Shown here one piece after another: positions 1,037 through 51,985 of a stretch of DNA of 64,000 nucleotides; the first letter of the stretch is position 1; each line of letters begins with the position of its first letter. Origin of the DNA: Meghimatium bilineatum (lineage: Eukaryota > Mollusca > Gastropoda > Stylommatophora > Philomycidae); assembly GCA_034231615.1 (NCBI GenBank), contig CM067298.1, positions 1,121,834 through 1,185,833 on the forward strand, read 5' to 3'. Below the pieces are notes generated by a model that saw only the letters and a program-made list of their open reading frames with translations, searched no databases and was not told the origin of the DNA. A program made the position numbers and the translations under genes.

Positions 1037-3012
1037 ACCATCACTGACAGAGAGGAAATTCTCAAACGCTGGGCTGAACATTTTGAAAATGTACTAAACT
1101 GCCCCTCCATCATCAACGAGGAAGCGATTGCGCGCATTATGCAAATACCAATCAATAACTCATTATCGGATCCCCTTGCATTGAGGAAGTGGAGAAAGCT
1201 ATCTCAAATTTGTCCGTAGGAAAAGCGCCGGGCTCAGACTCCATTCCAGCCAAAGTTTACGCTGTTAGTGGTCCTGTCATGTCTGCCAAACTTACAGAGC
1301 TCTTCCAGACAATGTGGAACCTGGAATCGATACCACAAGACTTTAAGGATGCTTCCATCATACAAGAGAAAAGGAAATCGCCTATCTTGCGACAACCATC
1401 AAGGCATATCCTTGCTCTCTATAGCAGGCAAAATTCTGGCTAGGGTCCTGTTAAACAGACTGCAAGCCCATCTTGAGACAGCTCCTTCCAGAGAGCCAAT
1501 GTGGCTTCCGACAGGGCAGAGGTACTGTTGATATGATTTTCACTGCCAGACAACTACAGGAAAAGTGTTGTGAACAGAACATTGGTCTCTACACCACATT
1601 TGTCGACCTAACTACGGCATTCGACACTGTAAATCGCGAAGGACTATGGAAGATCATGGACAAATTTGGATGTCCCGAAAAATTTACCAACATGGTTCGC
1701 CAGTTCCATGATGGTATGACAGCCTGTGTGCAAAATGACGGCGCACGCTCAAACCCCTTTCCAGTGACCAACGGCGTCAAACATGGTTGCGTCCTGACTC
1801 CGACGCTATTCAGCGTGGTGTTCTCTGCCATGTTAAATGATGCCTTCTAGAATAACAGTGCAGGAATTTTGTTTTCGCTATCGAGATGACAGAGGACTAT
1901 TCAATCTTAGTAGATTGAAGGTCAAGACCAAAACTAAGACGGACATTGTTCGTAACTTCTTGTTCGCCAACGATTGTGCATTAAATGCTACCAGTCTGAA
2001 AGACATGCAAGACAGCATGGACCTCTTTTCTTAGGCCTGTGATGCGTTCGGTCTCACCATCAGCACCCCGAAGACTTTAGTAATGTATCAACCAGCGTCA
2101 GGTGTCCCCTACACAGAGCCAGTGATCACAGTAAAGGGACAAAAACTTAATACTGCCAATAAGTTTGTATATCTCTGCAGCACACTATCACAAACTGCGA
2201 CAATTGATGAGGATGTTGCCCTGCGTATTGCTCGTGCCAGTGCAGCTTTCGGGAGCCTTCATGCTAACGTCTGGATCAGGCGTGGTCTCAGTCTGACAAC
2301 TAAGTTGGACGTGTACCGAGCAGTGGTTCTACCAACACTGCTTTATGCTGCGTCATCCTGGACTGTCTATATGAGACACGCTCGACAGCTGAACTCTTTT
2401 CATCTTCGGTTCCTACGAAACCTCATGGTAGTACGTTGGCAGGATCGTGTACCAGATACAGAAATTTTTCAATTCCCGTATGCAAAGCATCCATGCAATG
2501 CTGACTAGTTCCCAACTCCGCTGGACTGGCCACATTGTCCGAATGCCAGACAAGTGCCTTCCAAAGAGATTATTCTATGGGGAGCTGTGCCAAGGTAAAC
2601 GTTTAAGTGGAGGGCAGAAAAAGCGCTTCAATGATCACCTAAAAAGCTCTCTCAAGAACTGCAGCATTGATCCTAGCTCCTGGGAGACTACAGCAGTTGA
2701 TAGCTCAGCTGGCACACCCAGATCACTGCTGGCATCACGAAATTTGAAAAAGAAAGATCACTGCAGGCAATCCACAAGCACAAGAAGTGGAAGGACAAAT
2801 CCGTAAATTCTCCTACCCCGAACCTTCAGCACTCCTGCATGCACTGTAATAGAACTTTCCATGCATGAATCGGGCTCATCGGGCATCTACGAACTCACAA
2901 ACCAAATTAGTTAATTACCAATTTTTAATTATATATATTTTTTGTTCATCGCATTTAATGTTTTTCATGCCATGCTCATCTTCGCTTGCGAAGGAGGAAC
3001 ATCATAATCGTC
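1037..3012 (+). mobile_element. 5'-truncated LINE, copy 1 (reverse transcriptase, dead)
   Basis: It carries remnants of a non-LTR reverse transcriptase. In order these are a pre-RT block (EILKRWAEHFENVLN), ISLLSIAGKILARVLLNRL, ESQCGFRQGRGTVDMIFTAR, the palm-A block TAFDTVNREGLW near 1619, and the palm-C box mutated to FAND (1963-1974). Then come the thumb region and a C-terminal C2H2-like finger (CMHCNRTFHA, stop, IGLIGHLRTH near 2840-2890). At least four frameshifts and three in-frame stops interrupt it, including a TAG at 1848. The endonuclease is missing, as in a 5'-truncated insertion. The 3' end is gcttgcgaaggaggaacatc with a short CAT-rich tail. A second copy lies at 50.2-51.5 kb. The clade is uncertain: RTE- or CR1-like. 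Confidence 0.92.
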
Positions 3013-14676: not shown

Positions 14677-14776
14677 ATTTCCAAGCCTGCAGTTCTCATC
14701 CAGATGTTCCAGTCATCATTTTTGTTTCTAAGATGTTTCCTATGGAGAAAAAATGTTTACCAAGAAATAAATCAAG
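14677..14776 (+). CDS. EFL1: EFL1 exon e6 (start of domain II)
   Basis: It encodes (D)FQACSSHPDVPVIIFVSKMF then PMEKKCLPRNKS. PVIIFVSKMF is a hallmark block at the first strand of EFL1 domain II (VMYISKMV in EF-2). The acceptor is gtgaaatatttcag and the donor gtgaat, after two bases of an Arg codon. The last bases plus the donor (aataaatcaaggtgaatact) are repeated twice more immediately downstream. Confidence 0.94.
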
Positions 14777-14875
14777 GTGAATACTTACTTTTATTGTTGT
14801 AATAAATCAAGGTGAATACTTACTTTTGTTGTTGTAATAAATCAAGGTGAATACTTACTTTTATTGTAATATTGT
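14766..14875. repeat. Triplicated exon end plus 5' splice site of e6
   Basis: Three copies of aataaatcaaggtgaatact plus ttacttttattgt, about 37 and 35 bp apart. The first overlaps the e6/intron junction, so the duplications carry the last ~11 exon bases and the GT donor. Confidence 0.93.
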
Positions 14876-24771: not shown

Positions 24772-24919
24772 GTGATATGAACAAGCTGGTAGCAGGACTC
24801 CGTCTTTTAAACCAAGCTGATCCTTGTGTAGAGGTCAGAGTTCAGGAAACAGGCGAGCATGTTATTATAGCAGCCGGAGAAGTACACCTGCAGAAATGTA
24901 TTGATGATCTTAAGACCAG
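24772..24919 (+). CDS. EFL1: EFL1 exon e10 (domain III)
   Basis: It encodes (G)[20 protein letters not shown] then [20 protein letters not shown] and [20 protein letters not shown] and ETGEHVI.AAGE.HL..C..DL are the domain III signatures of EFL1 (LVEGLKRLAKSDPMVQ...HIIAGAGELHLEICLKDL in EF-2). The acceptor is gatttgttttctag. The donor gtgaga follows two bases of an Arg codon (acc ag). The last ~24 exon bases plus this donor form the unit of the huge array that follows, so the authentic donor is the first of about 140 equivalents. Reading past it meets TGA immediately. Confidence 0.97.
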
Positions 24920-27900
24920 GTGAGAGGTGACTGAATGTATTGATGATCTTAAGACTAGGTGAGAGGTGACTGAATGTATTGATGATCTTAAGACCAGGTG
25001 AGAGGTGACTGAATGTATTGATGATCTTAAGACCAGGTGAGAGGTGACTGAATGTATTGATGATCTTAAGACTAGGTGAGAGGTGACTGAATGTATTGAT
25101 GATCTTAAGACCAGGTGAGAGGTGACTGAATGTATTGATGATCTTAAGGCCAGGTGAGAGGTGACTGAATGTATTGATGATCTTAAGACCAGGTGAGAGG
25201 TGACTGAATGTATTGATGATCTTAAGACCAGGTGAGAGGTGACTGAATGTATTGATGATCTTAAGACCAGGTGAGAGGTGACTGAATGTATTGATGATCT
25301 TAAGACCAGGTGAGAGGTGACTGAATGTATTGATGATCTTAAGACCAGGTGAGAGGTGACTGAATGTATTGATGATCTTAAGACCTGGTGAGAGGTGACT
25401 GAATGTATTGATGATCTTAAGACCAGGTGAGAGGTGACTGAATGTATTGATGATCTTAAGACCAGGTGAGAGGTGACTGAATGTATTGATGATCTTAAGA
25501 CTAGGTGAGAGGTGACTGAATGTATTGATGATCTTAAGACCAGGTGAGAGGTGACTGAATGTATTGATGATCTTAAGACCAGGTGAGAGGTGACTGAATG
25601 TATTGATGATCGTAAGGCCAGGTGAGAGGTGACTGAATGTATTGATGATCTTAAGACCAGGTGAGAGGTGACTGAATGTATTGATGATCTTAAGACCAGG
25701 TGAGAGGTGACTGAATGTATTGATGATCTTAAGGCCAGGTGAGAGGTGACTGAATGTATTGATGATCTTAAGACCAGGTGAGAGGTGACTGAATGTATTG
25801 ATGATCTTAAGACCAGGTGAGAGGTGACTGAATGTATTGATGATCTTAAGACCAGGTGAGAGGTGACTGAATGTATTGATGATCTTAAGACCAGGTGAGA
25901 GGTGACTGAATGTATTGATGATCTTAAGACCAGGTGAGAGGTGACTGAATGTATTGATGATCTTAAGACCTGGTGAGAGGTGACTGAATGTATTGATGAT
26001 CTTAAGACCAGGTGAGAGGTGACTGAATGTATTGAATATCTTAAGACTAGGTGAGAGGTGACTGAATGTATTGATGATCTTAAGACCAGGTGAGAGGTGA
26101 CTGAATGTATTGATGATCTTAAGACTAGGTGAGAGGTGACTGAATGTATTGATGATCTTAAGACCAGGTGAGAGGTGACTGAATGTATTGATCATCTTAA
26201 GACCACGTAAGAGGTGACTGAATTTATTGATGATCTTAAGACCCTGTGAGAGGTGACTGAATGTATTGATGATCTTAAGACTAGGTGAGAGGTGACTGAA
26301 TGTATTGATGATCTTAAGACTAGGTGAGAGGTGACTGAATGTATTGATGATCTTAAGACTAGGTGAGAGGTGACTGAATGTATTGATGATCTTAAGACTA
26401 GGTGAGAAGTGACTGAATGTATTGATGATCTTAAGACCAGGTGAGAGGTGACTGAATGTATTGATGATCTTAAGACCAGGTGAGAGGTGACTGAATGTAT
26501 TGCTGATCTTAAGACCAGGTGAGAGGTGACTGAATGTATTGATGATCTTAAGACCAGGTGAGAGGTGACTGAATGTATTGATGATCTTAAGACTAGGTGA
26601 GAGGTGCCTGAATGTATTGATAATCTTAAGACCAGATGAGAGGTGCCTGAATGTATTGATGATCTTAAGACCAGGTGAGAGGTGACTGAATGTATTGAAT
26701 ATCTTAAGACCAGGTGAGAGGTGACTGAATGTATTGATGATCTTAAGACCAGGTGAGAGGTGACTGAATGTATTGATGATCTTAAGACCAGGTGAGAGGT
26801 GACTGAATGTATTGATGATCTTAAGACCAGGTGAGAGGTGACTGAATGTATTGATGATCTTAAGACCAGGTGAGAGGTGACTGAATGTATTGATGATCTT
26901 AAGACCAGGTGAGAGGTGACTGAATGTATTGATGATCTTAAGACCAGGTGAGAGGTGACTGAATGTATTGATGATCTTAAGACTAGGTGAGAGGTGACTG
27001 AATGTATTGATGATCTTAAGACCAGGTGAGAGGTGACTGAATGTATTGATGATCTTAAGACCAGGTGAGAGGTGACTGAATGTATTGATGATCTTAAGAC
27101 TAGGTGAGAGGTGACTGAATGTATTGATGATCTTAAGACCAGGTGAGAGGTGACTGAATGTATTGATGATCTTAAGGCCAGGTGAGAGGTGACTGAATGT
27201 ATTGATGATCTTAAGACCAGGTGAGAGGTGACTGAATGTATTGATGATCTTAAGACCAGGTGAGAGGTGACTGAATGTATTGATGATCTTAAGACCAGGT
27301 GAGAGGTGACTGAATGTATTGATGATCTTAAGACCAGGTGAGAGGTGACTGAATGTATTGATGATCTTAAGACCAGGTGAGAGGTGACTGAATGTATTGA
27401 TGATCTTAAGACCTGGTGAGAGGTGACTGAATGTATTGATGATCTTAAGACCAGGTGAGAGGTGACTGAATGTATTGATGATCTTAAGACCAGGTGAGAG
27501 GTGACTGAATGTATTGATGATCTTAAGACTAGGTGAGAGGTGACTGAATGTATTGATGATCTTAAGACCAGGTGAGAGGTGACTGAATGTATTGATGATC
27601 TTAAGACCAGGTGAGAGGTGACTGAATGTATTGATGATCGTAAGGCCAGGTGAGAGGTGACTGAATGTATTGATGATCTTAAGACCAGGTGAGAGGTGAC
27701 TGAATGTATTGATGATCTTAAGACCAGGTGAGAGGTGACTGAATGTATTGATGATCTTAAGGCCAGGTGAGAGGTGACTGAATGTATTGATGATCTTAAG
27801 ACCAGGTGAGAGGTGACTGAATGTATTGATGATCTTAAGACCAGGTGAGAGGTGACTGAATGTATTGATGATCTTAAGACCAGGTGAGAGGTGACTGAAT

Positions 27901-30425
27901 GTATTGATGATCTTAAGACCAGGTGAGAGGTGACTGAATGTATTGATGATCTTAAGACCAGGTGAGAGGTGACTGAATGTATTGATGATCTTAAGACCTG
28001 GTGAGAGGTGACTGAATGTATTGATGATCTTAAGACCAGGTGAGAGGTGACTGAATGTATTGAATATCTTAAGACTAGGTGAGAGGTGACTGAATGTATT
28101 GATGATCTTAAGACCAGGTGAGAGGTGACTGAATGTATTGATGATCTTAAGACTAGGTGAGAGGTGACTGAATGTATTGATGATCTTAAGACCAGGTGAG
28201 AGGTGACTGAATGTATTGATCATCTTAAGACCACGTAAGAGGTGACTGAATTTATTGATGATCTTAAGACCCTGTGAGAGGTGACTGAATGTATTGATGA
28301 TCTTAAGACTAGGTGAGAGGTGACTGAATGTATTGATGATCTTAAGACTAGGTGAGAGGTGACTGAATGTATTGATGATCTTAAGACTAGGTGAGAGGTG
28401 ACTGAATGTATTGATGATCTTAAGACTAGGTGAGAAGTGACTGAATGTATTGATGATCTTAAGACCAGGTGAGAGGTGACTGAATGTATTGATGATCTTA
28501 AGACCAGGTGAGAGGTGACTGAATGTATTGCTGATCTTAAGACCAGGTGAGAGGTGACTGAATGTATTGATGATCTTAAGACCAGGTGAGAGGTGACTGA
28601 ATGTATTGATGATCTTAAGACTAGGTGAGAGGTGCCTGAATGTATTGATAATCTTAAGACCAGATGAGAGGTGCCTGAATGTATTGATGATCTTAAGACC
28701 AGGTGAGAGGTGACTGAATGTATTGAATATCTTAAGACCAGGTCAGAGGTGACTGAATGTATTGATGATCTTAAGACCAGGTGAGAGGTGACTGAATGTA
28801 TTGATGATCTTAAGACCAGGTGAGAGGTGACTGAATGTATTGATGATCTTAAGACCAGGTGAGAGGTGACTGAATGTATTGATGATCTTAAGACCAGGTG
28901 AGAGGTGACTGAATGTATTGATGATCTTAAGACCAGGTGAGAGGTGACTGAATGTATTGATGATCTTAAGACCAGGTGAGAGGTGACTGAATGTATTGAT
29001 GATCTTAAGACTAGGTGAGAGGTGACTGAATGTATTGATGATCTTAAGACCAGGTGAGAGGTGACTGAATGTATTGATGATCTTAAGACCAGGTGAGAGG
29101 TGACTGAATGTATTGATGATCTTAAGACTAGGTGAGAGGTGACTGAATGTATTGATGATCTTAAGACTAGGTGAGAGGTGACTGAATGTATTGATGATCT
29201 TAAGATCAGGTGAGAGGTGACTGAATGTATTGATGATCTTAAGACCAGGTGAGAGGTGACTGAATGTATTGATGATCTTAAGACCAGGTGAGAGGTGACT
29301 GAATGTATTGATAATCTTAAGACCAGGTGAGAGGTGACTGAATGTATTGATGATCTTAAGACTAGGTGAGAGGTGACTGAATGTATTGATGATCTTAAGA
29401 TCAGGTGAGAGGTGACTGAATGTATTGATGATCTTAAGACCAGGTGAGAGGTGACTGAATGTATTGATGATCTTAAGACCAGGTGAGAGGTGACTGAATG
29501 TATTGATGATCTTAAGACCAGGTGAGAGGTAACTGAATGTAATGAATATCTTAAGACTAGGTGAGAGGTGCCTGAATGTATTGATGATCTTAAGACCAGG
29601 TGAGAGGTGACTGAATGTATTGATGATGTTAAGACCAGGTGAGAGGTGACTGAATGTATTGAATATCTTAAGACTAGGTGAGAGGTGACTGAATGTATTG
29701 ATGATCTTAAGACCAGGTGAGAGGTGACTGAATGTATTGATGATCTTAAGACCAGGTGAGAGGTGACTGAATGTATTGATGATCTTAAGACCAGGTGAGA
29801 GGTGACTGAATGTATTGATGATCTTAAGACCAGGTGAGAGGTGACTGAATGTATTGAATATCTTAAGACTAGGTGAGAGGTGACTGAATGTATTGATGAT
29901 CTTAAGACCAGGTGAGAGGTGACTGAATGTATTGATGATCTTAAGACCAGGTGAGAGGTGACTGAATGTATTGATGATCTTAAGACCAGGTGAGAGGTGA
30001 CTGAATGTATTGATGATCTTAAGACCAGGTGAGAGGTGACTGAATGTATTGAATATCTTAAGACTAGGTGAGAGGTGACTGAATGTATTGATGATATTAA
30101 GACCAGGTGAGAGGTGACTGAATGTATTGATGATCTTAAGACCAGGTGAGAGGTGACTGAATGTATTGATGATCATAAGACCAGGTGAGAGGTGACTGAA
30201 TGTATTGATGATCTTAAGATCAGGTGAGAGGTGACTGAATGTATTGATGATCTTAAGGCCAGGTGAGAGGTGACTGAATGTATTGATGATCTTAAAACCA
30301 GGTGAGAGGTGACTGAATGTATTGATGATCTTAAGACCAGGTGAGATGTGACTGAATGTATTGATGATCTTAAGACCAGGTGAGAGGTGACTGAATGTAT
30401 TGATGATCTTAAGATCAGGTGAGTG
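24893..30425. repeat. 39-bp array of exon end plus splice donor, about 141 copies
   Basis: Each unit reads tgtattgatgatcttaagac plus caggtgagaggtgactgaa. It copies the last coding bases of e10 (C-I-D-D-L-K-T-R) together with the GTGAGA 5' splice site. Common variants are actagg, acctgg, ggccagg, gatcagg and ttgaatatc. At 39 bp (13 codons) it is stop-free on the minus strand, producing meaningless ORFs of 1138 and 572 codons. Internal structure: a 2028-bp (52-unit) tandem duplication and a 195-bp higher-order repeat. Confidence 0.98.
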
Positions 30426-30727
30426 AGGACAAATTGCATTGATAATCTTAATTTCTCTCATCCACTAAGCTGCTTAAATCTACATTTTGATACAAGTTTA
30501 CTATCTCTAATTATAAACATCATGTTGTCTGTAAAATCAAATGAACCGTTCCTAATTGCGTTACTTCCGTTCCAGAGATAATCGATTTAGAAAGTCATGC
30601 TTCATTAAAAATAATAAATATTGTATTTGAGCATTAATATAAACAAGTGTGATAAAATGGATATTAACAACTCTAGCTATGAATACATTTGAGTCAATCA
30701 CAAAATTTGTAATAATATATTTGTATT
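30426..30727. other. AT-rich intronic sequence after the array
   Basis: No gene or array seen. It sits between the homogeneous array and dispersed repeat X, and may belong to the same insertion. Confidence 0.4.
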
Positions 30728-30946
30728 TTCATGTTTTGTTTTTGACTAACTCTAACCCTGTGAAGTAATCACATATAATCCATGTAGACACATTTTCGTA
30801 TATTGTTTGACCTTTAACCCTGTGAACTCTAACCGTGTGAAGTAATCACATATAATCCATGTAGACACATTAAGGGAAATTTCTATACACCTGAAAATTA
30901 ATTTGGTCCAAACCTAAAATTAATCAAGTCCTGAAAGAGTTACGAC
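30728..30946 (-). repeat. Dispersed repeat X, minus copy
   Basis: Reverse complement of the repeat at 21101-21362: about 48 of 51 bases match at one end (tttggtccaaacctaaaatt) and about 38 of 42 at the other (gactaactctaaccctgtga). An internal segment (gtgaagtaatcacatataat plus ccatgtagacacatt) is duplicated. Confidence 0.75.
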
Positions 30947-31075
30947 CAGGTGAGAGATAGTTAAATGTATGACTCTTTCAGATATCAAGACCAGGTGAGA
31001 GAAGGCTGAATGTATTGATGATTTTAAGACCAGGTGAGATAACAGAATGATAATCATAAAACTAGGTGAGAAATT
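30947..31075. repeat. Degenerate tail of the 39-bp array
   Basis: Four decayed units with gaccaggtgaga, aagaccaggtgagagaaggc, tgatgattttaagaccaggt and aaaactaggtgaga. They show that the array once extended past dispersed repeat X. Confidence 0.85.
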
Positions 31076-31237
31076 GCTGCAGAACCTACAAAGTTCTGTA
31101 GTAGGTTACTACTCTCTATTGTCAATTATCTACTCTATGTTGTCAACTGTCTTGTCTAGTTTTTGCATGAACTTCACTAAAAATGTATAGATATTTTCTG
31201 TTTGAGATGACGTGAGAGAATTGTTTCTCATCTACAG

Positions 31238-31379
31238 ATATGCTAACATTGAGGTGAATGTCTCTGAGCCGATTGTTCCATTCCGTGAAACTATAGTTAT
31301 ACCCCCCAAACTGGATATGGTCAATGAAAATATTCAAGAGTCGGATGAACTGGTGCTGGATAACAATGGAGTCATCCAG
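31238..31379 (+). CDS. EFL1: EFL1 exon e11 (domain III/IV junction)
   Basis: It encodes (R)YANIEVNVSEPIVPFRETIV then IPPKLDMVNENIQES and LVLDNNGVIQ. VSEPIVPFRETI.PPK.DMVNE is almost invariant in EFL1 (SDPVVSYRETV in EF-2). The acceptor is gtttctcatctacag. The donor gttact is weak, but ending at ATC CAG gives exact register with e12 (13 residues to the LLR block, as in human). The open frame runs on into intron without similarity. The exon is 47 codons plus one base, ending in phase 0. Confidence 0.95.
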
Positions 31380-31635: not shown

Positions 31636-32542
31636 CTCTCTCTCTCTCTACCTCTTGCTCGCCACCCCCTTCAAGTAAGGTCTAAAACATCTCTCTCTAC
31701 CTCTTGCTCGCCACCCCCTTCAAGTAAGGTCTAAAACATCTCTCTCTACCTCTTGCTCGCCACCCCCTTCAAGTAAGGTCTAAAACATCTCTCTCTACCT
31801 CTTGCTCGCCACCCCCTTCAAGTAAGGTCTAAAACATCTCTCTCTACCTCTTGCTAGCCACCCCTTCAAGTAAGGTCTAAAACATCTCTCTCTACCTCTT
31901 GCTAGCCACCCCCTTCAAGTAAGGTCTAAAACATCTCTCGCTACCTCTTGCTCGCCACCCCTTCAAGTAAGGTCTAAAACATCTCTCTCTACCTCTTGCT
32001 CGCCACCCCCTTCAAGTAAGGTCTAAAACATCTCTCTCTCTCTACCTCTTGCTCGCCACCCCCTTCAAGTAAGGTCTAAAACATCTCTCTCTATCTCTTG
32101 CTAGCCACCCCTTCAAGTAAGGTCTAAAACATCTCTCTCTACCTCTTACTAGCCACCCCTTCAAGTAAGGTCTAAAACATCTCTCTCTCTACCTCTTGCT
32201 CGCCACCCCCTTCAAGTAAGGTCTAAAACTTCTCTCTCTACCTCTTGCTCGCCACCCCCTTCAAGTAAGGTCTAAAACATCTCTCTCTACCTCTTGCTAG
32301 CCACCCCTTCAAGTAAGGTCTAAAACATCTCTCTCTACCTCTTGCTAGCCACCCCATCAAGTAAGGTCTAAAACATCTCTCTCTACCTCTTGCTAGCCAC
32401 CCCCTTCAAGTAAGGTCTAAAACATCTCTCTCTACCTCTTGCTAGCCACCCCCTTCAAGTAAGGTCTAAAACATCTCTCTCTACCTCTTGCTAGCCACCC
32501 CCTTCAAGTAAGGTCTAAAACATCTCTCTCTACTTCATCTCA
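31636..32542. repeat. 48-49 bp pyrimidine-rich minisatellite, about 19 copies
   Basis: The unit is tctctctctacctcttgctc plus gccacccccttcaagtaagg and tctaaaaca. Each unit is a long polypyrimidine tract ending cttcaag and running straight into gtaagg, so it looks like an acceptor and a donor overlapping. Variants: gctag for gctcg and one C fewer. Confidence 0.96.
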
Positions 32543-38543: not shown

Positions 38544-39256
38544 GAGGCGTGTTCAAATGAAAACGGGACTTGTTACACCACGCGTGATAGAGCGCACTGA
38601 TATTGATGACATTTTGCACTAGTAATGAGTATCCAATAATTTACATACGGTCACGTGTTCATCTTCCCAGCATGCATATGTGCTGCAGAAGACTGTTAAC
38701 AATATGGCGGGTGTGATTCCGAACCCGTCCAAAGTGAATCAGCGTGCTGTGATCCAGTTTCTTTCATTTGAAGGATGTCAAGCAGTAGACATTCATCGGA
38801 GAATGAAGGCAGCATATGGTGACAAATGTTTGTCGAGGACTAGAGTGATGGAGTGGGTGCGTATGTTTAAAGACGGACGTGAGTTAACGGCAGATCTTGC
38901 ACGGCCAGGTCAGGCGCATATTGTTGCAACAGAAGAAGCCATAGCCGTGCTTGATAAAGCAGTACTGACTGACCGTCGTCGGAGCATTCGTTCGCTTGCA
39001 GAAGAATTCCATATGTCAATTGGGACAGCCCACATGGTTGTTCGGAAGAAATTGAACTAGCAACTTTTTCTCGGACGGCATTCGACGTCTACCTAAACAG
39101 TGGGATGCTTGCCTAAATGCATACGGAGATTTTTTCTGATGAACCCAGGTGCATTCTTATTCACAAGTGGTTGCTTTGTTCAATTCCGTTGAAAATATTA
39201 AATTGCGTATGATACTTTTTAAATAAATCCACAAGTCCCGTTTTCATTTGAACACA
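38543..39256 (+). mobile_element. Internally deleted mariner with perfect terminal repeats
   Basis: A perfect 24-bp inverted repeat bounds the element (38550-38573 and 39231-39254, beginning tgttcaaatgaaaacgggac), and it sits between TA repeats, the mariner target. The ORF from ATG 38704 to TAG 39060 encodes an N-terminal helix-turn-helix domain (NQRAVIQFLSFEGCQAVDIH, RVMEWVRMFKDGRE, RSIRSLAEEFHMSIGTAHMV). Just after, in another frame, FFSDGIRRLPKQWDACLNAY is the transposase C-terminus. The whole DDD catalytic core is missing. It is a non-autonomous copy, possibly still able to bind transposase. Confidence 0.93.
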
Positions 39257-39366: not shown

Positions 39367-39516
39367 GCATCAACAGCTGATCATCAGTGTCACATTCTCC
39401 TGCGTGCAGCTCCTTTACCAGAGAAAGTTACAGAAATTCTACTCCAGAACCAGCATCATCTGAAAGTCTTGGACACTTTAATGCCAGCCATGGGAACTGG
39501 ACGCTCAGGTCTACAG
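39367..39516 (+). CDS. EFL1: EFL1 exon e12 (domain IV)
   Basis: It encodes ASTADHQCHILLRAAPLPEK then VTEILLQNQHHLKVLDTLMP and AMGTGRSGLQ. LRAAPLPE.VT.IL..N is the conserved LSVRAMPLPEEVTQILEEN of EFL1, at the start of the domain IV portion. The exon is exactly 50 codons, phase 0 at both ends. The acceptor is tttacactgttggcag and the donor gtataa. The final tctacag plus donor is repeated twice downstream. Confidence 0.95.
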
Positions 39517-39612
39517 GTATAATTTGTTTCTAATATCACATCTCTACTGGTATCATGTGTTTCTCATATCAAATATCTACAGGTACCATTTGTTTCTAGT
39601 ATCAGTGTTAAT
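39508..39612. repeat. Triplicated exon end plus 5' splice site of e12
   Basis: Three diverged copies, about 33-36 bp each: tctacaggtataatttgttt, tctactggtatcatgtgttt and tctacaggtaccatttgttt. The first spans the e12 donor. Confidence 0.88.
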
Positions 39613-49946: not shown

Positions 49947-51985
49947 CCTGTAGCAACCTAGGGAAAAATCATGCATACTTCCTCTGGAACCATACCATTT
50001 TTTATGACTTCTGGTTTTTCTGCATGTATCTTTTCTTTGTTTTTTTTTAGCATAACATTTTTATTTACTGAGTTATTTATTTTAAATTCGGATACAATTG
50101 AGATAAGTGGATGCTGGGTATGGTTTTGGTGTGTTGTTTGCTTGTATGTGTCAGTGTTATGTTGTGTACAACCAACGTGGACAAATGTACACAAAGTACT
50201 TACATTTTCAAAGAAGAGAAATGCAAATCGCCTAGCTTGCGACAACCATCGAGGCATATCCCTGCTCTCTATAGCAGGCAAAATTCTGGCTAGGGTCCTG
50301 TTAAACAGACTGCAAGCCCATCTTGAGACAGGTATCCTCCCAGAGAGCCAATGTGGCTTCCGACAGGGCAGAGGTACTGTTGACATGATATTCACTGCCA
50401 GACAACTGCAGGAAAAGTGTCGTGAACAGAACATTGGTCTCTACACCACATTTGTCGACCTAGCTACGGTATTCAACACTGTAAATCGCGAAGGACTATG
50501 GAAGATCATGGCCACATTTGGATGTCCCAAAAAATTTACCAACATGGTTTGCCAGTTCCATGATGGTATGACATCCTGTGTGAAAGATGACAGCATACAC
50601 TCAAACCCCTTTCCAGTAACTAATGGCGTTAAGCAGGCTTGAGTCCTGGCTCTGACGTTCTTCAGTATGGTGTTCTCTGCCATGTTAAAGGATGCCTTCC
50701 GGAATAACAGTGCAGGAATTTGTTTTCACTATCGAGCTGACAGAGGACTATTCAATCTTAGTAGATTGAAGGCCAAGACCAAAACTAAGATTGACATTGT
50801 TTGCGACCTCTTGTTCGCCGATGATTGTATACTAAATGCTACCAGTCTGAAAGACATGCAGGACAGCATGGACCTCTTTTCTTTGGCCTGCGATGTGTTC
50901 GGTCTCACCATCAGCACCCCGAAGACTTTAGCAATGTATTAACCAGCGCCAGGTGTCCCCTACACAGAACCAGTGATCACTGTAAAGGGACAAAAACTTA
51001 ATACTGTAATGCAATAATCCATGCAATGCTGACTAGGTCCCAACTCCGCTGGACTGGCCACATCGTCCATATGTCAGACAAGCGCCCTCCAAAGAGATTA
51101 TTCTATGGGGAGTTGTGTGAAGGTAAATGTTCAAGTGGAGGGCAGAAAAGGCGCTTGAAGGATCACCTAAAAATCTCTCTCAAGTACTGCAATATCAATC
51201 CTAGCTCCTGGGAGACTACAGCACTTGATCGGTCAGCCTGCCACACCCAGATCACTGCTGGCATCAAGAAATTGGAAAAAGAAAGAACACTGCGGGCAAT
51301 CCACAAGCGCAAGAAGTGGAAGGATAAATCCGAAAATTCTCCTACCTTCAGCACTCCTGCATGCACTGCAATAGAACTTTCCATGCACGGATCGAACTCA
51401 TCGGACATCTGTGTACTCACAAACCAATAATTACCAATTTTAGTTGTTATTAATTTTTTTGTTTTTTCATCGCATCTTTTGTTTTTCATGCCATGCTCAT
51501 TTTCGCTTGCGAAGGAGGAACATCATCATCAACATGTTCAAGGTCATCCATAGGCTTTTCTTCAGAAAAATATGGCTCCTCAAATTGCTCATAATTGACA
51601 TCACTATTAAATATTATCAACATTTCCCACAACCCCCCACGTTGATCTACAGTACCTGCAACACTGAAGCTTTAAAAATCATCATCATCTGAATCATCGT
51701 CCATGAAGAATTCCCGAACAATGGTGTCACTGAAGTTAGATCCATACAGTATGGCTTGCAAACGTGAAGAGGTCAAATAAATTATGACCGGGTATTTATA
51801 TAGCTGCGAAAAATTCAGTGTCAATCACTCTAAAACGTAGTTATTATAAGAGCATGATGGGAAATTAACATGGACATTTGTTGTTCACGACTACAGATGG
51901 CTACCTCAATGTAGACATTGTCAATATTTGGTTTCGATAACTAGATTAAATTTGTTGACATTTGTAGACTTCTGGTTGCTACAGG
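49947..51985. mobile_element. piggyBac-like element (TTAA, 12-bp inverted ends) carrying a LINE
   Basis: cctgtagcaacc at 49947-49958 and its exact reverse complement at 51974-51985 bound the element, each immediately flanked by TTAA (49943-49946 and 51986-51989). TTAA targets and CC-starting termini are piggyBac traits. The right arm read on the minus strand has an acidic stretch (DSDDDDF near 51695, then FEEPYFSEEKPMDDLE), compatible with a piggyBac transposase N-terminus, but the catalytic core is absent. LINE copy 2 fills the centre (50210-51540). The whole lies inside the TTTAG-rich array region. Confidence 0.75.
50210..51540 (+). mobile_element. LINE copy 2 (same family as 1.0 kb), dead
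   Basis: It is collinear with 1370-2990. A single frame (about 50215-50640) carries RGISLLSIAGKILARVLLNR, ESQCGFRQGRGTVDMIFTAR and NREGLWKIM, ending at TGA 50640. Then come the intact palm-C box FADDC (50814-50825), SPKT-like text and a stop near 50940. About 330 bp present in copy 1 (about 2156-2485) are deleted at about 51006-51015. The C-terminal finger CMHCNRTFHARIELIGHLCT is intact here. The palm-A Asp is changed (TVFNTV instead of AFDTV). The element ends gaaggaggaacatcatcatc. Confidence 0.92.

Follow-up and report, generated by a model that had tools for sequence, protein, structure and literature searches.

The window analyzed here, a stretch of 64,000 nucleotides from the gastropod Meghimatium bilineatum (contig CM067298.1, positions 1,121,834 to 1,185,833, forward strand), contains part of the gene EFL1, and at the end of coding exon 16 of this gene a 39-bp segment spanning the exon-intron boundary is repeated in tandem in 142 units. 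We regard it as probable that this array is a giant minisatellite spanning a 5' splice site (donor), structurally a "mirage" as described in amphioxus, that the first donor is used while the others are mostly silent, and that its persistence reflects tolerance rather than a regulatory device. Its structure, register, reading frame and stop, its inner block of near-identical sequence and the intact, single-copy state of the host gene can be read directly from the DNA, and an array of 5.5 kb of this kind is not a chance object.

Our own unit decomposition places the array on the plus strand at window positions 24895-30432, with 142 units in strict register, zero indels and a donor position in each unit. 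Tandem Repeats Finder (TRF) calls a single array at 24895-30451 (period 39, 142.5 copies, 96% matches, 0% indels). The original prediction, made from the letters of the window, had described an exon end with its 5' splice site amplified about 141 times between 24893 and 30425. The amplification and its location are borne out by the unit count, while the end given there lies a few bases short and degenerate relics extend beyond it. As proposed there, the unit is composed of the last coding bases of an EFL1 exon together with a GTGAGA donor, namely 25 bases of exon end, AATGTATTGATGATCTTAAGACCAG, and 14 bases of intron start, GTGAGAGGTGACTG; the consensus unit contains AGGT, within CCAGGTGAG. 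As in a mirage, the repeat lies across the exon-intron boundary, its first unit being the end of exon 16, and the copies bear the duplicated splice signal, with the donor GT retained in 140 of 142 units.

The copies are highly uniform, 82 of the 142 units being letter-identical to the first, exonic unit. At the donor the 9-mers are CAGGTGAGA (102 units), TAGGTGAGA (28), CTGGTGAGA (4), CACGTAAGA (2), CCTGTGAGA (2), CAGATGAGA (2, with the GT lost), CAGGTCAGA (1) and CAGGTGAGT (1). The real 9-mer CAG/GTGAGA accounts for 102 of 142 units including the real site, i.e. for 101 of the 141 downstream units, and unit 142 diverges past GTGAGT. Eight distinct unit variants fall in the nine donor columns and 18 in the other 30 columns, so that variants per column over the 142 units give no sign of selection keeping or eroding the downstream donors; this variation fits neutrality better than function. 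On the minus strand open frames of up to 1,311 codons run through window positions 24807-30464 as a side effect of a 39-bp unit that has no stop in those frames.

A comparison at a lag of 52 units revealed that units 1-57 (24895..27117) recur 2,028 bp later as units 53-109 (26923..29145), with one mismatch over 57 units. This 52-unit block may be a very recent duplication or a duplication made by the assembler, and the present length of the array would accordingly be either recent or inflated by assembly. Some relics follow directly after the last unit, as a degenerate continuation attgcattgataatcttaa at 30433..30455, of which TRF reaches 30451. Others lie about 500 bases further on, near the real acceptor, as four isolated degenerate units at 30944..31075 with GTGAG cores at 30950, 30995, 31034 and 31066. 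These relics make it probable that the array has a longer history and formerly extended further or was more dispersed.

The reading frame separates the first donor from all others. Exon 16 (24772..24919, plus strand; termed e10 in the original prediction) ends in phase 2, and its last codon is split AG/A with exon 17 (31238..31379; e11). A homology-guided splice search joins 24919 to 31238 in frame, in agreement with the junction proposed before. At the start of intron 16 (24920..24928) CAG is followed by GTGAGAGGT, and reading past the donor gives AGG TGA, with the in-frame stop at 24921-24923. Later donors add 39n bases, in frame and straight into this stop, as had been predicted; with any later unit as donor the message carries the TGA while five coding exons are still downstream. 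For the functional EFL1 mRNA we infer splicing from the first, intron-distal donor at 24919, since the other donors leave the in-frame TGA and since 43 homologues run straight across the joint of exons 16 and 17.

How the first site is chosen had been left open, and nothing in the sequence says how. RNA structure that hides all donors but the first can be discarded: local accessibility is predicted to be 0.0037 at the first donor, lower than the median of 0.0063 at the others, and the first donor ranks 105th of 142. Plausible reasons for the first donor could be exon definition, the exon measuring 148 nt to the first donor and more to all others, and its earlier emergence in transcription.

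The host gene is intact. The EFL1 model, built with gastropod EFL1 proteins, has 21 coding exons with GT-AG ends and 3,363 bp in 1,120 codons without an internal stop, and spans 91,297 bp from window position -36800 to 54496 (G000:C1:1085033-1176329). Exon 16 itself matches PDB chain 5anb_K, elongation factor Tu GTP-binding domain-containing protein 1, with an E value of 1.6e-18. The nearest proteins are those of the heterobranch gastropods Plakobranchus, Lymnaea, Biomphalaria, Physella and Aplysia (69-71% identity in the alignment). Within the assembly (1.61 Gb) EFL1 is single copy: 20 of 34 protein matches lie in this gene (74-99% identity), and a second copy, whose presence would allow this one to degenerate, can be dismissed, as the other 14 matches, elsewhere in the assembly, reach just 35-61% identity. 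With 43 homologues picked from 120 listed, 415 columns are conserved in at least 90% of them; EFL1 keeps 398 and deviates at 17. By this simple measure of column conservation the gene is under purifying selection as judged from its sequence. At the exon 16/17 joint (residues 658-672) a gap or insertion occurs in none of the 43 homologues.

Two residues encoded in the array-copied codons of exon 16 are Lys658, where 41 of 43 homologues have Arg, and Thr665, which none of the 43 shares. Their conversion from array copies is conceivable. As a case of array-driven exon change, R658K and T665 do not stand out among the 17 of 415 conserved columns that deviate protein-wide.

The array of exon 16 is not alone in this gene. 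Four of the 20 EFL1 donors (exons 6, 12, 16 and 18) are located in, or at the start of, tandem arrays. The original prediction was right about the unit, the frame and the stop; it had missed the three further donor arrays of EFL1 (two of them in the window), the arrays elsewhere in the genome and the mirage precedent. The array of exon 6 (L011:2203-6467, window -17630 to -13366) has 128 units of 33-34 bp, starts exactly at intron base 1 and keeps the GT in all 128 units. Of these, 127 read TCT/GTAAGA, and only the real site reads TTG/GTAAGA, so that the first donor alone has G at position -1. The array of exon 12 (14766..14867, plus strand, by TRF) holds 2.9 copies of a 35-bp unit with the donor AAG/GTGAAT at 14776/14777, and that of exon 18 (39510..39604, plus strand, by TRF) 2.9 copies of a 33-bp unit (82% matches) with the donor CAG/GTATAA at 39516/39517. 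None of the 20 EFL1 acceptors lies in a tandem array; one array ends upstream of the exon-19 acceptor, at a distance of 20 bases, and leaves it uncovered. A further 49-bp array of 18 units in intron 17 (window 31641-32533), about 260 bases past exon 17, contains a donor-like CAAGTAAGG in its consensus.

All four array donors of EFL1 are followed almost at once by a stop. The first in-frame stop lies 2, 1, 1 and 1 codons past the donor, i.e. within two codons in 4 of 4 cases, compared to 2 of the 16 other EFL1 donors (one-sided Fisher p 0.003). The pattern was noticed post hoc and comprises few cases, and the comparison donors are all from EFL1.

To look beyond EFL1 we counted a tandem-donor pattern (CAGGTRAG-gap-CAGGTRAG-gap-CAGGTRAG) across the genome, in which matches are not independent and large arrays count many times. 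The donor word gives 3,060 + 3,348 = 6,408 triplets, compared to 1,546 + 1,070 = 2,616 for the reversed word, 1,308 + 1,409 = 2,717 for the permuted word CAGATRGG and 1,649 + 1,447 = 3,096 for the reverse of CAGATRGG. In tandem triplets the donor word hence exceeds three control words of identical composition by a factor of 2.1-2.45. As single words, which were counted for this pair, CAGGTRAG (71,516) and its reverse (70,615) are at parity; the triplet excess over the reverse is therefore a property of tandem arrays. Across gene regions totalling 200 kb the donor word occurs singly 5 times on the sense strand, the controls 7 and 8 times. The acceptor word TTTNCAG shows no excess of triplets (35,645 vs 38,488 for its control), this word being less specific so that a weak excess may be diluted; singly, in the same gene regions and on the sense strand, it occurs 122 times and its reverse 73 times. 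If large arrays are counted once, nine independent donor-word arrays stand against two of CAGATRGG in C1 0-4.23 Mb (two-sided p 0.065; 0.109 without exon 16).

Among the donor-triplet matches listed (to 4.23 Mb of C1) exon 16 alone accounts for 57 of 100, and the pattern also matches the relic stretch 30944-31075, at C1:1152780. At least ten donor-word clusters are found among these matches, eight of which were examined individually; the two remaining ones are exon 16 itself and C1:1093406 in EFL1 intron 3, in opposite orientation and counted as not exonic. In five of the eight the first unit coincides with the end of an open frame that looks like an exon and has either an acceptor or a match to a known domain, or in four of seven if L038 and L039 are taken as one locus. 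These two (L038:1-1401, L039:1-1501) represent one duplicated locus; the copies are separated by about 266 kb of C1, share 95.6% identity across 1,284 bases and carry some ten units of a 20-bp donor array on a KCTD-type BTB exon (Pfam BTB_2 at the cut-off; KCTD15 in the PDB, E 0.0011). In L040 a 21-bp donor array (1183-1401) sits on a possibly HRDC-like exon; the Pfam match (E 0.0065) is below the cut-off and the PDB search gave no match (best E 0.25), so that the HRDC reading is weak. The exon-like frame of L034, which has no Pfam match, may resemble TAF1B, and in L037 a candidate exon measures 38 bases.

An immediate stop also follows the donors of L034, L037 and L038/L039. With all arrays pooled, 7 of 8 array donors meet a stop within two codons, compared to 2 of 16 other EFL1 donors (p 0.0007); for L034 and L037 the phase is taken from a single open frame each, and the searched word, with its GTRA, favors stops in phase 2. 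On the acceptor side at least 16 clusters up to 4.1 Mb of C1 were seen by eye among the matches listed. In seven of the first eight by position no real acceptor was found by eye and by a simple open-frame test. The eighth, an array of TTTACAG units in L047:1-451, may end just before a real acceptor and is a possible acceptor-side counterpart.

We infer the growth of the exon-16 array as follows. A short tandem duplication may once have crossed the boundary of exon 16 and intron 16 and would then have grown by unequal exchange within a minisatellite-rich stretch of the chromosome arm. A donor-spanning duplication should do no harm while splicing still takes the original, 5'-most donor; coding selection would hold the exon side and leave the intron side free, so that the array would expand into the intron. 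Use of a downstream donor would give a nonsense product, probably removed by nonsense-mediated decay. Such an array would likely be lost where a downstream donor lengthens the protein, whereas immediate nonsense would let errors be discarded. A duplication on the acceptor side may be less tolerated, since an upstream AG would be taken.

The surroundings agree with such a setting. The EFL1 neighborhood is MINISATELLITE-rich, and TRF repeats make up 48,255 bp of the 91,297-bp gene span, compared to 3.1, 1.6, 2.5, 10.8, 9.0 and 21.7% in six other gene regions (200 kb in total). EFL1 lies 1.1 Mb from the contig end, the region with 21.7% repeats 0.7 Mb from a contig end, and 21 control-word arrays on C1 also gather near contig ends by eye. 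Minisatellites commonly crowd in subtelomeric regions. The repeat density of EFL1 fits such crowding, the positions being known relative to contig ends.

Several observations weigh against passive, tolerated seeding with use of the first donor. Given the 90 arrays in EFL1 with a period of at least 10, and seeds spread evenly, 0.8 donors would be expected in arrays by chance, and the four observed give a Poisson P of 0.009 (post hoc), or 0.042 for 3 of 19 donors if the exon-16 array is left out. The genome-wide excess of the donor word is likewise not easily given by passive seeding, and a bias or benefit at donors may exist. Three of the eight donor-word arrays (L033, L035, L036) have no visible coding exon, L035 lying in retrotransposon-like sequence. 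In L040 the frame past the donor stays open to the end of the sequence examined, with a GEWRKLT-type repeat, so that nonsense is no general rule; later donors, if used, would insert a variable seven-residue repeat into the protein. Use of the first donor is predicted from frame and homology. SRSF1 can favor the intron-proximal site in work with two donors, according to the part of PMC5585400 drawn on here, and this published "two-donor" effect would argue against the choice of the first. Finally, the 52-unit block may be an assembly duplication.

What these observations could mean has to be weighed against other explanations. Tandem duplication might start preferentially at 5' splice sites, e.g. 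through R-loops or nicking at U1-bound nascent RNA, with selection removing only the harmful cases. The donor-word triplet excess despite single-word parity with the reverse, the four array donors in EFL1 against 0.8 expected and the exact start of the exon-6 array at intron base 1 speak for such a mutational bias. However, tolerance of donor arrays together with loss of acceptor arrays could yield the same asymmetry, the frequency of the words within genes comes from the sense strand of 200 kb, and the triplet matches are not independent; we thus consider a mutational bias unlikely. It is quite unlikely, in our view, that the array is a regulatory brake, i.e. a selected donor field over which U1 is spread, with a set share of transcripts going to the nonsense isoform and array length setting the output of EFL1; tuning of EFL1 through nonsense-mediated decay had been raised in the original prediction as one possibility, next to neutral tolerance. 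All downstream donors that keep their GT do lead through the same stop, and donor words but not acceptor words are enriched in arrays genome-wide. On the other hand the donor columns are as variable as the rest, the array may have been re-expanded recently, and arrays of 2.9, 2.9, 128 and 142 units in one gene have no common length.

The single base difference between units 1-57 and 53-109 would be expected if the assembler had inflated the array or its 52-unit block. Removing the block still leaves about 90 units, with many distinct variants in fixed order, and EFL1 contains three further donor arrays, one of them with 128 units, which makes an artefact highly improbable as the explanation. 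Splicing within the array, in which the AG of a unit serves as acceptor for an upstream donor, regenerates a donor and shortens the intron tracelessly, could draw on the adjacent AG/GT in most units (AG/GTGAG), and multiples of the unit from 78 bp on would be of spliceable length. No pyrimidine tract precedes the AG in the unit, and 127 of the 128 exon-6 units (TCT/GTAAGA) are without AG, so that such recursive splicing has next to no probability. We hold a tolerated donor-spanning minisatellite to be the most probable reading. A wider generalization is offered tentatively and we doubt it more than we believe it: in this gastropod lineage arrays would form or survive preferentially on 5' splice sites, by extrapolation in hundreds of genes, a filter would keep cases with a stop within two codons, the spliceosome would take the 5'-most of more than 100 equal donors, and acceptor arrays would not be in excess.

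Arrays of this kind are already known. In amphioxus, mirages are minisatellite-like tandem duplications across exon-intron boundaries in Adh3, the globins BflGb6 and BflGb9, TnC and PGBD5; according to the parts of these papers considered here they carry splice signals in many copies and are unstable in length, and normal splicing is reportedly undisturbed (PMC3087553, PMC3902484). For the EFL1 array, undisturbed splicing may at most be surmised from the intact single-copy gene. Like the EFL1 array they have short boundary-spanning units (10-72 bp in Adh3) with copied splice signals. In contrast, the BflGb6 haplotypes, the only mirage counts compared, have 6 and 3 units and the EFL1 arrays 142 and 128, and mirages hit donor and acceptor boundaries where EFL1 shows four donors and no acceptor. 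The EFL1 arrays occur in a mollusc, with an excess of the donor word measured genome-wide, and the exon-16 array was seen in one assembled sequence, which holds the near-identical 52-unit block. New are the size, the mollusc host, the donor bias and the post hoc stop-first pattern.

The primary paper on amphioxus mirages is Canestro et al. 2002. A human minisatellite with multiple splice donors, of the IFI6 type, was reportedly described by Turri et al. 1995. Going by its title, it shares the repeated donors with EFL1; its donors are said to supply the transcript, whereas the later EFL1 donors would, by frame, give nonsense.

The gain of introns through AGGT segments duplicated in tandem (Rogers 1989, Hellsten 2011 and 24-bp AGGT repeats in fission yeast, as told in the portion of PMC4974935 used here) likewise involves tandem copies of a short AG/GT segment. 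It creates a new intron within an exon, whereas the EFL1 copies lengthen an intron which already has donor and acceptor: the array lies inside intron 16, with the real acceptor at 31238 outside it, and no new intron lies between copies in a former exon. Intronic variable number tandem repeats affect splicing in TERT (intron 6, 38-bp repeats; PMC3948165) and ABCA7 (PMC5954066). The TERT repeat resembles the EFL1 array as an intronic tandem repeat of similar unit length in a splicing-relevant gene; it lies more than 1 kb from the exon-intron junctions, acts by RNA pairing and, in the part of the source consulted, is not said to copy a splice site. Introns of earthworm metallothionein contain minisatellites, copied donors not being mentioned in the corresponding part of PMC12783039. 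Among the results listed in a search of the open-access literature there was neither a case from molluscs nor a donor bias on the scale of a genome, which is a weak negative.

To our knowledge, studies of how duplicated 5' splice sites compete have used minigenes with two or a few sites. EFL1, a conserved single-copy gene, has 142 donors in one intron and 128 in another, and its protein still has to be produced. RNA of a single animal would reveal the winning donor and its frequency, over graded distances and near-identical sites. If the donor bias and the stop-first pattern hold genome-wide, junk repeats would become a readout of the tolerance for splicing errors.

The introns of EFL1 further contain reverse-transcriptase-like retrotransposon fragments and a mariner-like fragment, recognized by eye in open frames at window positions 1159-2865, 38629-39057 and 50100-51430.

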